A DNA stretch of 51,308 bases from an uncultured Oscillospiraceae bacterium (GTDB lineage Bacteria; Bacillota; Clostridia; Oscillospirales; Oscillospiraceae). The notes beneath the pieces were generated by a model. It was not told the DNA's origin, did no database searches, and saw nothing but the letters and a program-made list of their open reading frames with translations. Below are positions 4,916-26,033 of this stretch, one piece after another (positions within the stretch are counted from its first letter, which is position 1; every line of letters starts with the position of its first letter). The stretch lies in assembly GCA_947631865.1 (NCBI GenBank), contig CANRNF010000010.1, forward strand, positions 1-51,308. Reading direction: 5' to 3'. The translations under genes were made by a program, and so were the position numbers.

Positions 4916-5775
4916 CTCCTGCGCTCCATGGCCTGGACCGTGAGGAACAGGAACACGCCTGTCACCGACAGGAAGTACACGATGGACCGTATGTCGAATA
5001 TATCATAGGTGAAGTTGTCGAATCTGTCGAAAACGGCGAGCTGCTCCAACACCTGCGCGAAAAGGCCGGAAAAGCTGTCCGGCCAGAGAGCATAGCATAC
5101 GCCCAGGGCCGCCGCCAATACCAGTGTCAGCACCAGGGCAAACAGGCCGTTTTTGGTCAGCCGCCAGAATATCAGCCCGAACAGCGCCGCCAGCACCCCG
5201 AAGGCGATGAGGGACGCAGCCCCGGAGGAGGAGATGAACCGGGCCAGGGGCGTGAGGAAGTGGAGCACCAGCATCACGAGAAAGCACGCCCCGGCGGCGA
5301 GCCCCACGTTCTCCATGAGGCTGGAGATGAAAAGCCCGATGGCCGTGAGGGCCATTCCAAGGAAGAAGTAGCCCACCAGCGCGCCGTAGGCGCTTTTGAG
5401 GGCCACGTGGCCCGCCGTGGCCGCCGCGTTCAGGGCCAGGGGGTACAGGGCCATCACCGCCAGCGGCATGGCCATGACCGTCACCAGGGCCAGGTACTTG
5501 CCCGCCACGATGCGGGTCATGCCCAGGGGCAGACTGTAAAGGAGCTGGTCCGTCTTCTGGTGGCGCTCCTCGGCAATGGAGCGCATGGTGAGAAGGGGTA
5601 TGGTGATGAGGGCGATCCACTTCATGCTGTACAGCACGCTGGTGAAATCCGGGGAACCCTCCAGATTGAAGGCCATCACGTAGATGCCCGCGAACAGCAG
5701 CATGATGGCCCCGTACACGTAGCCGGTCAGGCCGTTGAGCTGGCTGTCCAGCTCCCGCTCATAGATGGCTGTCAC
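4903..5775 (-). CDS. ABC-2 type permease (GldF-like)
   Basis: 290 residues with about six hydrophobic segments. The N-terminal cytosolic stretch MTAIYERELDSQLNGLTG matches the common ABC-2 permease opening, in which an E/R-rich helix precedes TM1. The segment after TM2, TMRSIAEERHQKTDQLLYSLPL, is the conserved cytosolic coupling region of this subfamily. It overlaps the ATPase gene by 4 bp (ATGA). It presumably forms the membrane channel of the exporter with the neighbouring ATPase. Confidence 0.85.
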   Translation of the reverse strand: MTAIYERELDSQLNGLTGYVYGAIMLLFAGIYVMAFNLEGSPDFTSVLYSMKWIALITIPLLTMRSIAEERHQKTDQLLYSLPLGMTRIVAGKYLALVTVMAMPLAVMALYPLALNAAATAGHVALKSAYGALVGYFFLGMALTAIGLFISSLMENVGLAAGACFLVMLVLHFLTPLARFISSSGAASLIAFGVLAALFGLIFWRLTKNGLFALVLTLVLAAALGVCYALWPDSFSGLFAQVLEQLAVFDRFDNFTYDIFDIRSIVYFLSVTGVFLFLTVQAMERRRWAS

Positions 5776-6767
5776 GCGTCCTCCCCCTTTCCTCTTCTCT
5801 TCCGGCGTGGCGTATCCGCCGCCGGGTCGGGGGCGTCCTCCTGGGCCAGGGCCAGAAACACGTCCTCCAGGCTTGTCTGCTCCCGCTCCAGCCGCAGCAC
5901 CGGGATGCGCCGGTCGCTGAGGGCGAAGCTGAGCCTCTCGTCCATATCGGGGCCCGTGTCCGAGGCGGCGATGACCGCCTCCGTCCTGCCCTCGGCTCCC
6001 GCCTCCGCCGTGACGGACGTCACGCCGGGGACGGCTTCCAGCGCCTGGCGCACCTCCATGGGCATCGCCTTGGCGGTGACCTTATAGGTCACCTGGCCGG
6101 AGAACCGCTGCTCCAGCTCCTCCGGGGTGCCGGAGGCCACCAGGCGGCCGTGGTGGATCATGAGCACCCGGTCGCACACCGCCTGGACCTCGCTCAGGAT
6201 ATGGCTGGAGAGGATGACGGTGTGGTCCCTTCCCAGAGTGCGGATGAGCTTTCGTATCTCCACGATCTGCAGGGGGTCCAGCCCCACCGTGGGCTCGTCC
6301 AGGATGATGACCTCCGGGTCGCCCAGGATGGCCTGGGCCACGCCCACCCGCTGGCGGAAGCCCTTGGACAGGTTCCGGATGAGCCGGCCGGCCACCTCCT
6401 CCACGCCGGTGACGGCCATGGCATGGTCCAGCTGTTCGTCCAGGTCCCTCACGGCCACGCCCTTGGCTCTGGCCACGAAGGACAGGTACTCCCGGACCGT
6501 CATGCCCATATAGAGGGGCGGCTGCTCGGGCAGGTACCCCACCTGCCGCCGGGCCGCCAGGGGCTCCTCAAATATATCGTGGCCGCCGATGGCCACCTTT
6601 CCCTCCGTGGCGGCCAGGCACCCGGCCAGGATGTTCATGGTCGTGCTCTTGCCCGCGCCGTTGGGGCCGAGGAAGCCCCACACCACGCCCTTGTCCACGG
6701 TGAAGGTCAGGTCCTCCACCGCCACGCGGGAACCGTATCGCTTTGTCAGGTGGCTCACTTCGATCAT
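5772..6767 (-). CDS. ABC transporter ATP-binding protein (GldA-like)
   Basis: 331 residues. Walker A GPNGAGKST lies near residues 34-42, the signature LSKGFRQRVGVAQAI near 137, and Walker B VIILDEPTVGLDP near 158. After the ABC domain a C-terminal extension (about 220-331) ends in a basic tail, RRKRRGKG. An AAAGGAGG site sits upstream of the ATG. First gene of a four-gene leftward operon. Domain order and neighbours fit the Gld/Nos-type exporter group; the substrate is unknown. Confidence 0.9.
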   Translation of the reverse strand: MIEVSHLTKRYGSRVAVEDLTFTVDKGVVWGFLGPNGAGKSTTMNILAGCLAATEGKVAIGGHDIFEEPLAARRQVGYLPEQPPLYMGMTVREYLSFVARAKGVAVRDLDEQLDHAMAVTGVEEVAGRLIRNLSKGFRQRVGVAQAILGDPEVIILDEPTVGLDPLQIVEIRKLIRTLGRDHTVILSSHILSEVQAVCDRVLMIHHGRLVASGTPEELEQRFSGQVTYKVTAKAMPMEVRQALEAVPGVTSVTAEAGAEGRTEAVIAASDTGPDMDERLSFALSDRRIPVLRLEREQTSLEDVFLALAQEDAPDPAADTPRRKRRGKGEDA

Positions 6768-6863
6768 ACCGCCGCCTCCTTTTGTGTCCGCCGGTCATTG
6801 TACACCCATCCGGCATGCCGTTTGTGACCGAATGATGAAATTTTCATAACTTTTCCCGCGCCG

Positions 6864-7784
6864 CTATACATTATAATTTCTCTCCCGGAACTGGGTGGGG
6901 GTGCAGCCCTGCGTCTTTCTAAATAAGGTGCTGAAATACCGGGCGTCCCGGAAGCCCGCCTCTCGGGCGGCCTGGCCCACGGGCAGGTCTGTCTCCGCCA
7001 GCAGTTCCCGGGCCCGCTCCATCCGCCGGGCCGTCACCCAAGCGGTGAAGGTGGTGTCCAGCTCCCGGCGAAAGAGGGCCGAGAGATACCCCGCTGTGAC
7101 CCCGGCGTGGGCGGCGGCGCCGCCCAGGGACAGGTCCGGGTCGGATATGTGTTCCTGCCCGTAGGCCAGGGCCCGGTCCAGGGCGCCGCCGGTCTCCGCC
7201 TGGCCGTCCGTTTCTGTTGTGTTCTCCGGCGCAGCCTCCTCCCCGCCGGCGGTGTCCACCGCTCTCGCGGGAAGGAATACATGCTGCTCCGGGTGGATAT
7301 ACCGCATAGCCCACAGCCGGGACGCCTCCTCCCAGCAGCGGGGCAGGTCCTCCAGCCGGGATGCGGGCGCGCTCACCGCGATGTGCCAGTCCGCGAGGCT
7401 GGCCGCGGCATACTGCCCCCGCACCTCATTCACGCACCGGCGGAGGAGGCCGGGCAGTTCGCCGTCGTTCCCCTTGATGAGCACGGCGCAGACCGTGGCC
7501 TCCCAGGGGACAGGCACATACTCGGCGTATTTGAGAAAGTGGGCCATGAGCCCGCTGCGCACGGCCGCCACCGGGTCGGACAGGTAGTCCGCCGCCGCCC
7601 TTGGCGGGGGCGGCAGGGTGAACAGGGCGACGGCGTAGCCCCCGGCATCCAGGTCGATATCCAGCCGCCGGGCCATGGCCAGGGCCTCTCCCCGGTCCAA
7701 GAGCCCCGCCGTCAGCCGCTCGAAGAAATACCGCCGCACATAGGGGGCCAGCTCCGGGTCATGGAGTATCTCCTCTCTCGTCAT
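6864..7784 (-). CDS. AraC-family transcriptional regulator
   Basis: 306 residues. The last 100 hold two helix-turn-helix units: LSLGGAAAHAGVTAGYLSALFRRELDTTF, then LPVGQAAREAGFRDARYFSTLFRKTQGCTPTQF, the standard AraC/XylS signature. The N-terminal 200 residues are not an obvious AraC-type arm/cupin domain. They loosely resemble the linker of YesN-type regulators but lack a receiver domain. It starts 16 bp after the araR stop with a GAGGGAGG site, so it is most likely co-transcribed with araR and linked to pentose use. The effector is not known. Confidence 0.85.
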   Translation of the reverse strand: MTREEILHDPELAPYVRRYFFERLTAGLLDRGEALAMARRLDIDLDAGGYAVALFTLPPPPRAAADYLSDPVAAVRSGLMAHFLKYAEYVPVPWEATVCAVLIKGNDGELPGLLRRCVNEVRGQYAAASLADWHIAVSAPASRLEDLPRCWEEASRLWAMRYIHPEQHVFLPARAVDTAGGEEAAPENTTETDGQAETGGALDRALAYGQEHISDPDLSLGGAAAHAGVTAGYLSALFRRELDTTFTAWVTARRMERARELLAETDLPVGQAAREAGFRDARYFSTLFRKTQGCTPTQFRERNYNV

Positions 7785-7800
7785 AACGAATGCCTCCCTC

Positions 7801-8874
7801 TCACCGGCTGCTGGCCCGCTCCATCAGCTCCCAGTCCAGGGACCGGCTGGTGCCCTGCTGGCCCCGGAGGATGTGGATGAGCTCCTCCGCCGCCACCTGG
7901 CCCATGCGGCTGTGGCGGTGCCAGAGGGAGGTGATGTGCACGGGGCCGATCTGGCTGTAGTAGCTGTTGTCGAAGCTGACCACCGCCACGTCCTCCGGCA
8001 CCCGCTTGCCCATGGCCAGCAGCTCCCGGATCAGGTGGAAGGCCACCTCGTCGTTATAGCATATCACCGCGGACACGTCGTCCAGACGCTCGGTCAAAAA
8101 CCGGCGCAGCAGGGCGCCCCCCTGCTGTTCCATCATCTCCAGCCGGTCCTGGGTGTCGTACCAGCAGAAGCGCCGGTCGGAGATGGGCAGGCCCTGGTCC
8201 CGGATGGCGGAGACGGAGCCGTGGTACCGCTGGGGGCCCTGGACGTCGTCGGATTTAAAGATGCCGCCGATGCGCCGGTGACCCTTGTCGATGAGGTACC
8301 GGGCCAGCTTGTAGCCGCCGCCGTAGTTGTCGTCGGCCACGCAGGGGATGCCGGTCAGCTCCGCGTAGGCCCCGTGGAGGAACACCATTGGCACCCCCAT
8401 CCGTCCCAGCTGGCGGTAAAGGTCCGCGTTGGGGTTGGGCAGGGCCGTCTTGGAGCCCTCCGCCAGGATGCCCGCCACCGGGTGCTCCAGAAGCTGCTGG
8501 AGTATCTCCCGCTCCCGGCTCACCTGGTTCTCCGTGGCGAAGACCAGGATGGAGTAGCCCTGACCGGCGAAGACGCTCTGGGCGTCATGGAGGATGGTGG
8601 GAAAGATGTAGTCGTCCAAAAAGGACGATATCACCGCCACCTGGCGCACCTCCCCCGCCCGGGTGACGCCGGTAGCATAGGTGCCGCTGCCCTGGCGGGA
8701 CTGGACCACGCCCTCCTCCGCCAGAAGCTGCAGCGCCCGGCGCACCGTCTGCCGGCTCACGGAAAACCGCTCCGAAAGCTCCGCCTCCGTGGGCAGCCGC
8801 CGTCCCGCCTTCCATTCCTGGCCCCGTATCTCCTCCCGGAGTTGGTCGGCCAGGGTCCTGTATTTCAGCGCCAT
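7801..8874 (-). CDS. araR: AraR-type arabinose repressor (GntR HTH + LacI-like sensor)
   Basis: 357 residues. Residues 1-70 form a GntR winged helix (LPTEAELSERFSVSRQTVRRAL). From about residue 78 a LacI/periplasmic-binding-like effector domain runs to the end (VAVISSFLDDYIFPTILHDAQ, ILAEGSKTALPNPN, DDNYGGGYKLARYLIDKGHRRI, VSFDNSYYSQIGP). This fusion is the hallmark of Bacillus AraR, which is released from DNA by L-arabinose. Identity is supported by the divergent arabinose operon and by a 27-bp shared sequence found upstream of both units. One copy overlaps the probable araR promoter, implying autoregulation. Confidence 0.9.
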   Translation of the reverse strand: MALKYRTLADQLREEIRGQEWKAGRRLPTEAELSERFSVSRQTVRRALQLLAEEGVVQSRQGSGTYATGVTRAGEVRQVAVISSFLDDYIFPTILHDAQSVFAGQGYSILVFATENQVSREREILQQLLEHPVAGILAEGSKTALPNPNADLYRQLGRMGVPMVFLHGAYAELTGIPCVADDNYGGGYKLARYLIDKGHRRIGGIFKSDDVQGPQRYHGSVSAIRDQGLPISDRRFCWYDTQDRLEMMEQQGGALLRRFLTERLDDVSAVICYNDEVAFHLIRELLAMGKRVPEDVAVVSFDNSYYSQIGPVHITSLWHRHSRMGQVAAEELIHILRGQQGTSRSLDWELMERASSR

Positions 8875-8943
8875 GGTCTCTCCCCTCTCATTTTTGCTGT
8901 GCCTATTGCCGTCCCTGCCGGACGGCTACGTGATAATGTATCG

Positions 8944-8970
8944 ATTTGTATTAAAAATGCGTACAAATTC
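8944..8970. promoter_or_regulatory. Probable AraR operator upstream of araR
   Basis: ATTTGTA (8944-8950) and TACAAAT (8962-8968) form an inverted repeat with an 11-bp spacer. The right half, CGTACAAAT, matches the half-site of Bacillus AraR boxes. The 27-bp stretch matches 9220-9246 at 20 of 27 positions. On the minus strand it overlaps a plausible araR promoter (TTGTAC-N18-GATACA). A further ATTTGTC half-site lies at 8976. Confidence 0.65.
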
Positions 8971-9219
8971 CACAGATTTGTCTGCTAATTCGCCATTTGT
9001 GCCCAATCAGTTTGTCATATTGCTGTTGCCTTTGCCCGTTTTTTCAGATTTTTCTGGCAGAATGAGCAAATTGACCAAAAGCTTTCAGAAATTACGGTAA
9101 ATCTGGACCATAAATAAACACACCTAGTTTACCACGAAATCTGAAAATTGCAAACATAATTCCGGGGTTTTCGGGAAGGATTCCTGAAAGTTGTATCAAA
9201 ATGGCCGAAAGGCGTTCAA

Positions 9220-21977: not shown

Positions 21978-22107
21978 AGCCTCCCTCTGACGAGGGAGGT
22001 GGCACGGCGCAAGCCGTGACGGAGGGAGAGATATTTCAGGCTGGCGGTCATCTGTCTCTCCCCCAGTCTCGCTTACGCTCGACAGCCCCCTCGTCAGAGG
22101 GGGCCTT
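21978..22107. repeat. MITE-like palindromic repeat C
   Basis: Same architecture as repeats A and B but diverged: CCTCCCTC-TGAC-GAGGGAGG at one end, CACGGC-GCAA-GCCGTG next to it, and CCCCCTC-GTCA-GAGGGGG at the other end. It lies between the FprA promoter and the 3' end of the leader-peptide gene at 22178. Confidence 0.7.
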
Positions 22108-22136
22108 TTGCTGCGTTTTCTGCAAAGCCCCCGCGC

Positions 22137-22177: not shown

Positions 22178-22368
22178 TTATGGCTGCTGCCACTTATCCT
22201 TATCCACACCGAACTGCTCATATACAAATTCCCAGGCTTCTTCGGCTTTTTGCAGCCAAAAGGGTTTCTCCTCTCCGCCGGAGACAGCACCCAGGACGTC
22301 ATCATCCAGGGCGGCGTCCTTCTGTTCAGGGGTTACCCCCCCCCCCCGATTTTCTTATCCTCAGTCAT
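22178..22368 (-). CDS. Double-glycine leader peptide 1, interrupted at a 12-G tract
   Basis: ATG at 22366-22368, preceded by AGGAGG. The frame reads MTEDKKI, enters twelve consecutive G (22336-22347) and, as sequenced, hits TAA after four glycines. With one G more (13) or two fewer (10) it continues in frame: GVTPEQKDAALDDDVLGAVSGG, then EEKPFWLQKAEEAWEFVYEQ and FGVDKDKWQQP, 63 residues in all. The LxDDxLxxVSGG segment is a classic double-glycine leader of bacteriocin/RiPP-type precursors. It has its own promoter, palindromic site and terminator. Possibilities are phase variation by slipped-strand pairing, transcriptional slippage, or an assembly error in the homopolymer. The paralogue at 25669 has the same defect. 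No C39-type exporter is in the window. Confidence 0.7.
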
Positions 22369-22398
22369 CGTATTATTCCTCCTTGATGATTTGATCAC

Positions 22399-22452
22399 AG
22401 TATCAGACATTCCGGGGCATTTGTCAACCATTTTGTCCCGAATCGACAAAAT
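22399..22452 (-). promoter_or_regulatory. Promoter and upstream palindrome of leader-peptide gene 1
   Basis: Minus strand: TTGACA (22422-22427), 17-bp spacer, GATACT (22399-22404). Three bases upstream of the -35 box is TTTTGTC-N7-GACAAAA (22431-22451; ATTTTGTC/GACAAAAT if extended to 22430-22452). The same 21 bp stand at the same distance from the -35 box of leader-peptide gene 2. A site touching -35 from upstream suits an activator. Confidence 0.75.
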
Positions 22453-25668: not shown

Positions 25669-25937
25669 TTAATACGGTTTATAGGCGGGGCAATGCTCAG
25701 CGCTGTTGTTTATAAAATCAGACAGGTCGTCACGATGGGGGCAGACGTCGGTGTCCCGGTGGTGGCAGTACATACGGCACTCTTCGGACTTTTGGACTGC
25801 CCTTATACCGGGGTCGTGATTGTACCGGTAATCACTGACCCCGCCGCCGCTGACTCCTTCCAAGGTCTCGTCGTTCAGGGTCTCCTTCTGTTCAGGGGTT
25901 ACCCCCCCCCCCGCTGGATCTTCTTCTCTTCGCTCAT
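25669..25937 (-). CDS. Double-glycine leader peptide 2, interrupted at an 11-G tract
   Basis: ATG at 25935-25937 after AAGGAGG. MSEEKKIQR leads into eleven G (25902-25912). As sequenced, a TAA follows after three glycines. With 12 G (or 9) it reads on: VTPEQKETLNDETLEGVSGG, then a 54-residue tail with four cysteines (EECRMYCHHRDTDVC ... EHCPAYKPY), 89 residues in all. Leader residues match gene 1 closely (M-S/T-E-E/D-KKI, poly-Gly, VTPEQK, VSGG), while the tails are unrelated, the pattern expected of precursor peptides. Promoter, spacing and palindrome are also shared. Whether the cysteine-rich tail is exported, cross-linked or metal-binding is unknown. Confidence 0.72.
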
Positions 25938-25980: not shown

Positions 25981-26033
25981 ATACTAGCGGAACGCCGGGC
26001 GGCCGTCAACCGTTTTGTCCCGAATCGACAAAA
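25981..26033 (-). promoter_or_regulatory. Promoter and upstream palindrome of leader-peptide gene 2
   Basis: Minus strand: TTGACG (26004-26009), 17 bp, TAGTAT (25981-25986). TTTTGTC-N7-GACAAAA (26013-26033) stands 3 bp upstream of -35, identical in all 21 bases to the site at 22431-22451, including the spacer CCGAATC. Similarity continues for about 16 bp further upstream (…GAATTGC). Confidence 0.75.

Follow-up and report, generated by a model that had tools for sequence, protein, structure and literature searches.

The double-glycine peptide gene at 25669..25937 is most probably a phase-variable (contingency) gene that switches by slipped-strand mispairing, and it belongs in that reading to a genome-wide poly-G system. 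According to the mechanism proposed, the G run in the leader would gain or lose Gs by mispairing at replication, and one length class in three would join the start codon to the leader and core. The in-frame precursor would then be cut after the GlyGly motif and exported by an NHLP-type C39-peptidase ABC transporter; the other length classes would stop soon after the tract. Through co-ordinated transcription the population would sense together, and each cell would make its own subset of peptides. The window is the whole stretch of 51,308 nucleotides analysed, and it contains two such genes.

The focal gene, its twin and their peptide family

Both window genes lie on the minus strand, each with a G tract within the leader:

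25669..25937, minus strand: focal peptide gene (ATG 25937-25935, stop 25669), with a double-glycine leader and a four-cysteine tail, out of frame as assembled
25902..25912, minus strand: 11-G tract (the putative switch) in the focal leader, by direct reading
22178..22371, minus strand: second peptide gene (ATG at about 22371), built on the same leader plan and ending in another, cysteine-free tail, out of frame as assembled
22336..22347, minus strand: 12-G tract of the second gene, by direct reading

The N-terminus of the focal gene reads MSEEKKIQR, followed by 11 G and an immediate stop. The start-codon frame meets TAA after the tract and yields a product of 12 residues, MSEEKKIQRGGG. Downstream, the frame VTPEQKETLNDETLEGVSGGGVSDYRYNHD... 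stays open over 77 codons up to the stop at 25669, the four cysteines included, and reads VTPEQKETLNDETLEGVSGG followed by the four-cysteine tail. Directly 3' of the 11-G run lies TAACCCCTGA, within which either wrong frame runs into a stop codon. The focal leader is short and ends in VSGG, a double-glycine motif of the V-[ATS]-G-G type. The start frame of the 22178 gene gives MTEDKKIGGGG and a stop, and its downstream frame is open for 52 codons. The first-pass annotation had described the focal gene as interrupted by poly-G between its start and a VTPEQK...VSGG leader with a four-cysteine tail, had counted 11 G where 12 or 9 are needed, and had held that the 22178 gene shares the leader plan and carries an unrelated tail. 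Direct reading bears out all of this, the tail of the 22178 gene being free of cysteine. The window also contains, at 21978-22109, a MITE-like repeat with many matches in relatives, in several of them on both strands.

A profile built from 11 intact members gave, at E values up to 1, 60 matches in this genome, 58 in the sister species G307, 46 in G318, 41 in G294 and 36 in G216; 19 of the 35 genomes of the genus have at least one match. The leaders are short, about 18-26 residues. The spacing N-C-x2-C-x6-8-C-P-x-C is common to members that were selected for their cysteine pattern, and other members carry zinc-ribbon-like cysteines or cysteine-free tails. Members of the GG-leader family in the alignments were picked by the V-[ATS]-G-G type motif, and the tail alignment has 26 rows (24 chosen from about 50 candidates that included repeats and alternative starts, a G307 row and the focal frame). 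A core similar to that of the family stands behind a tract-free leader in this genome (L006:2098-2334); in G216 and G294 it follows a tract leader that is in frame. The occurrence of the same core with and without a tract indicates that the tract module is an add-on to the leader, which comes and goes. None of the curated Pfam and NCBIfam precursor models exceeded its cut-off for the proteins scanned, and no family is listed for the focal protein. Membership in a class II bacteriocin or curated precursor family was rejected, PF10439 scoring 14.7 bits (cut-off 27.1) and TIGR01847 13.6 bits (cut-off 15.7).

Tracts at other positions were also observed. Three genes each at G294:C13 and G216:C18 have 9-10 G exactly at the leader GlyGly cleavage site, where slippage would alter the core and not the leader. 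Contig C87 of this genome, at 5700-9200 (L085), encodes two Cys/Gly-rich precursor-like peptides with G tracts of 9 and 10 at the first VAGG motif. These peptides are without a model match, and the end of the upstream frame resembles, by eye, a SPASM-type cysteine cluster; this may be a radical-SAM RiPP locus that uses such a switch as well. At G326:C9:12142-15150 (L040), three small frames close together, different in type (EKYESPEVEIVEI...), each have a 9-G run at the same place.

Tract length and reading frame among paralogues and relatives

The genome contains GGGGGGGTAACCCCTGAACAG, a word of 21 bases, five times: twice in the window and three times in a tandem cluster on contig C78. A looser pattern added leader tracts on C7 and C9, and reading all G runs of at least 8 added those on C11, C20, C37 and C97. 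The 11 leader tracts of this genome measure 11, 12, 9, 9, 10, 10, 9, 9, 9, 10 and 9 G; three of them are in frame and eight are not. For the C9 gene, as for the ortholog in G307, this count uses the leader-aligned start in place of an upstream ATG, so that the gene reads in frame in this genome but not in the sister. That 8 of the 11 copies are out of frame would suit decaying paralogues, a leader-tract ancestor having spread by duplication and most copies now being pseudogenes. However, the post-tract frame is open for 50-77 codons through the GlyGly motif in all eight, and the third gene of the C78 cluster is out of frame here yet in frame in the sister. Decay is thus a highly unlikely account of the set.

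Across five genomes, 24 tract leaders of 7-12 G were found, with an uninterrupted run at the same place in each. G307, 96-97% identical to this genome over the genes flanking the two window peptide genes, has 9 leader tracts of 7, 9 or 10 G, and 3 of them are in frame. Four more, all in frame, belong to G216 (two), G294 (one) and the bin CANQQB (one).

At two matched loci the length and the frame change together in genes that are otherwise intact. The C78 cluster has tracts of 9, 9 and 10 G here and of 9, 9 and 9 in G307; its third gene, with flanks 97-98% identical, is out of frame with 10 G here and in frame with 9 G in G307. The C9 gene is in frame with 9 G here and out of frame with 7 G in G307 (flanks 98 and 95% identical). 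On C37 the tract is 10 G here and 9 G in G307, out of frame in both, in matched surroundings with a small alteration next to the run; G307 has one additional tandem copy there. The tract on C20 is 9 G in both genomes in matched surroundings, as is that on C97, where the match is limited to its two-gene unit. In none of the four pairs examined is the downstream frame broken in either genome. One synonymous and four nonsynonymous codon changes separate the C9 pair, a pattern unlike strong purifying selection. Differences in length and frame between sisters at matched loci indicate that replication slippage operates at least on the evolutionary scale, and on the phase-variation reading the tracts would also switch within a population.

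The genomic differences between sisters at matched loci also tell against transcriptional slippage, in which RNA polymerase would slip on the G run to give a fixed in-frame share of mRNA, so that the tract would set the dose and not an on or off state. The uninterrupted run of 9-12 G is a possible template for such slippage, and the prevalence of 9 G irrespective of frame, with most leader tracts out of frame yet their downstream frames intact, also speaks for it. Productive transcriptional slippage is known mostly on A or T runs. We consider this explanation improbable.

Homopolymers are error prone, and the genome is a draft metagenome bin of 150 contigs, 87% complete, so an error of assembly or sequencing could have put out of frame copies that are truly in frame. 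The congener bins G257 and G300 contain G runs above 20 that are artefactual in look. Nevertheless, both frame states coexist at exactly 9 G, because the frame needed varies with the flank, and no single systematic miscount would bring all copies in frame. Tracts at the same codon recur in five genomes with conserved flanks, and runs occur in polysaccharide gene clusters as well. Homopolymer error has, in our judgement, very little chance of accounting for these frames, although tract lengths in a draft assembly can individually be wrong. The lengths deposited for G tracts may depart from the real distribution, as a Bifidobacterium breve study cautions (PMC9187656).

The share of leader tracts in frame is about a third (3/11 here and 3/9 in G307), and 9 G is the modal length whatever the frame. 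A third is the random-frame expectation, and the assembled state therefore need not be selected; neutral slippage fits these figures as well as selection does. We regard it as likely that the device is selected and does not merely reflect a slippage equilibrium in a spreading gene family. The first-pass annotation had preferred a selected mechanism to two chance errors, a view supported by the 24 tract leaders in five genomes and the two matched loci with a change of length and frame. It had also proposed that tract length and frame be tabulated over homologous loci, with conserved non-G glycine codons in relatives and a lone deletion here as the outcome that would speak against a switch. The relatives instead keep the G run, with shifts of length and frame at those two loci; the focal gene itself has no counterpart in three of them. 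As a side observation, the in-frame tract peptides of this genome are cysteine-rich, in a set that is small and partly orthologous. Cysteine-free tract peptides are out of frame in both this genome and G307, and in frame in CANQQB.

Neither the focal gene nor the 22178 gene has a counterpart between the corresponding flanking genes of G307, G294 and G216, as far as the contigs reach (that of G307 ends inside the focal interval), and the comparisons of length are those of paralogous loci. The interval there is without a G run of at least 7, GATTCGGGACA or a peptide of this kind, and the alignments skip both genes. The two window peptide genes look like recent gains. The interval between an M16 protease and a sigma-factor gene holds the focal gene here and unrelated DNA at both ends in G307; it is possibly a hotspot of gain and loss.

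The first family-wide pattern found this genome alone among 300, a range that is understated since the pattern misses the LTPEQ form (TTAACCCC) of G216 and G294. Scanning genome contigs with a pattern that covers both leader forms gave 16 stretches, 10 of which are leader tracts in four Oscillospiraceae bins named Lapin (rabbit, by name). The other six come from other phyla; each has a run of exactly 7 G with no leader of this type there, and they were rejected as chance. Viral contigs gave 0 matches to the tract-plus-leader pattern.

G runs across the genome and their flanks

The window contains 9 G8 words against 11.5 expected from dinucleotide shuffles, an unremarkable count that alone proves nothing. 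The evidence lies in the run lengths, whose distribution in this genome is two-humped. Within a sample of 141,222 bases, eight of whose nine stretches were chosen around tracts or peptide loci, exact runs of 4, 5, 6, 7 and 8 G number 877, 278, 40, 0 and 0, and those of 9, 10, 11 and 12 G number 14, 4, 1 and 1. The whole genome has 47 exact G7 runs, 32 exact G9 runs and 51 runs of at least 8. Merging the 51 runs by identical near flanks leaves 48 distinct tracts (6 G8, 29 G9, 9 G10, 3 G11 and 1 G12). GGG accounts for 71 of 519 glycine codons in 11 window genes, and for 10 of the 48 codons at the cleavage-site GlyGly of the 24 tract leaders. Since GGG is a minority among glycine codons, the unbroken run is not a mere codon preference; uninterrupted runs in coding sequence exceed what would be expected from the length distribution and from codon use.

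Polysaccharide-synthesis genes are the usual targets of phase variation. Many of the 51 runs lie in or at the end of such genes, also where these form clusters. The scan of tract genes covered 30 frames, 6 of them without a match at E 0.001. Matches were to glycosyltransferases, sugar epimerases, sugar transferases, FkbM and other methyltransferases, and FkbH, and further to an aminotransferase, UDP-galactopyranose mutase, an acyltransferase, a permease, a solute-binding protein and a choline-binding protein. Non-peptide tracts compared with G307 are 9 and 9 G at C1 (a repeated element), C11, C35 and C62, and 10 and 9 G at C25, the G307 lengths being biased to 9 because the stretches were chosen for exact G9; the match of the C87 tract is ambiguous.

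The run may also lie near the extreme 3' end of a gene, as at C47 9300-16500 of this genome (L081) and at L049, L053, L058, L069 and L070. The genes concerned are of the sugar-epimerase, aminotransferase and glycosyltransferase kinds, and short inverted repeats follow some of the runs. A role of the 3'-end tracts of epimerase genes in fusing adjacent genes was rejected, as the post-tract frames are short.

The tracts share a flank pattern. T directly follows the run in 45 of the 48 tracts, versus 70 of 318 for runs of 5-7 in the sample of this genome (Fisher p about 1.5e-22, with duplicated genes contributing non-independent rows). Positions 7-10 before the run are rich in A, the position just before it is mostly pyrimidine, and mostly TA follows. 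This pattern occurs in unrelated genes and reading frames. Among the matches listed for 22 congeners, a set that lacks this genome and some congeners, T follows G9 in 114 of 150 runs. When G257, G300 and G301 are set aside, the figure among the matches listed is 109 of 127; those three bins give 5 of 23 listed runs, a possible artefact. The motif HG9TA is found 22 times here (reversed control 3) versus 0-4 times in 139 other genomes of the family, 16 of which have any. A stop-codon device explains the T after the run only in part, as TAC and TAT also follow. A more speculative proposal, which we rate as rather unlikely, holds that the runs are copies of one switch element and not independent homopolymers, in a lineage that may have a dedicated means to make, move or keep G9-TA switches, which would shuffle both the peptides and the polysaccharide coat.

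Transcription, export and known systems

Upstream of the two window peptide genes the following elements were identified:

26013..26033, minus strand: operator-like element TTTTGTCGATTCGGGACAAAA, upstream of the focal gene, the second half of a direct repeat
25981..26009, minus strand: promoter-like TTGACG-17-TAGTAT, directly after the operator-like element, conserved in the alignment
22431..22451, minus strand: operator-like element upstream of the 22178 gene, identical to TTTTGTCGATTCGGGACAAAA with 0 mismatches

The direct repeat, ATTCGRG...ATTCGGG, has its halves 21 bp apart and precedes the -35 region, and a promoter-like pair follows the element at both window genes. With at most 3 mismatches allowed, the operator-like element has 15 sites in the genome and the reversed control pattern has 0. 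A downstream start was read for 14 sites; 10 of these precede genes for such peptides, in one case with a short intervening frame between, and 4 precede genes for other proteins. Promoters were examined for part of the tract-gene set. The genome encodes five LytTR genes, and a receiver-LytTR regulator (PF00072, PF04397) together with a GHKL-domain kinase (PF14501) adjoins the peptide array on C9. The ATTCGRG repeat is presumably akin to those of LytTR-regulated double-glycine peptide regulons. Judged from these elements, a LytTR-type response regulator probably co-ordinates the peptide set via the ATTCGGG element, as a candidate regulon.

The C39-peptidase exporter of this genome is an NHLP pair on contig C3, distant from the window and the focal gene, with 951 bits for TIGR03796 (cut-off 853) and 731 bits for TIGR03797 (cut-off 709). 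The TIGR03794 match beside the exporter is far below its cut-off (42.9 versus 156.2). The C3 exporter and the C9 regulator may serve these peptides. Double-glycine peptides are a class used for quorum signals and bacteriocins, and those described here may act as signals or as antagonistic peptides. If they are shared signals or weapons, a random switch in each cell within a co-regulated set would make questions of division of labour and cheating in bacterial social life directly testable. Metagenome annotation can miss such genes or call them pseudogenes.

Poly-G phase variation has been studied mostly in pathogens; in these uncultured gut Firmicutes it appears to be extensive and to affect secreted double-glycine peptides. 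A literature search outside subscription papers and preprints listed no recognisable account of phase variation by poly-G in Oscillospiraceae, nor of a tract switch in an NHLP-type peptide family. The genome resembles known NHLP/NHLM export systems in its GG leaders and in the two exporter models above their cut-offs, and differs from them in its short leaders and in that no precursor model passes for the proteins scanned. Its possible likeness to LytTR-regulated regulons lies in the 21-bp repeat before the -35 and in the GHKL kinase and LytTR regulator beside one array.

The gonococcal nap island, as far as the accessible text describes it, combines double-glycine bacteriocin-like small peptides with a C39 peptidase, and has a poly-G tract in NapR and a poly-T tract in NapC (PMC11798529). 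The NapR tract, of 6-12 G, lies near the 5' end; in the most frequent allele the GG leader is lost, and the authors regard the gene as likely phase variable (PMC11798529). That island, so described, involves one or two genes of a Gram-negative bacterium, whereas tens of peptide genes are present here in an uncultured Oscillospiraceae genus, 11 of them with the tract in the leader module, in a genome that has an NHLP exporter and LytTR genes. Campylobacter jejuni is reported to carry hypermutable G/C tracts in many surface-polysaccharide genes of one genome (PMC8355987, PMC8437040). The present genome is alike in its poly-G tracts within many polysaccharide genes, but it belongs to a different phylum and includes secreted peptides; its tract flanks share a consensus (T after the run, 45/48). 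B. breve is likewise a gut commensal, Gram-positive, in which a G tract that separates two open frames of the first pilin gene determines whether they are fused, with lengths that vary within cultures and are enriched in mice (PMC9187656). The switch there acts on pilin clusters and not on secreted peptides. The mechanism is already known from Campylobacter, Neisseria and Bifidobacterium, and what is new is the host group, the leader module and the tie to a candidate peptide regulon.
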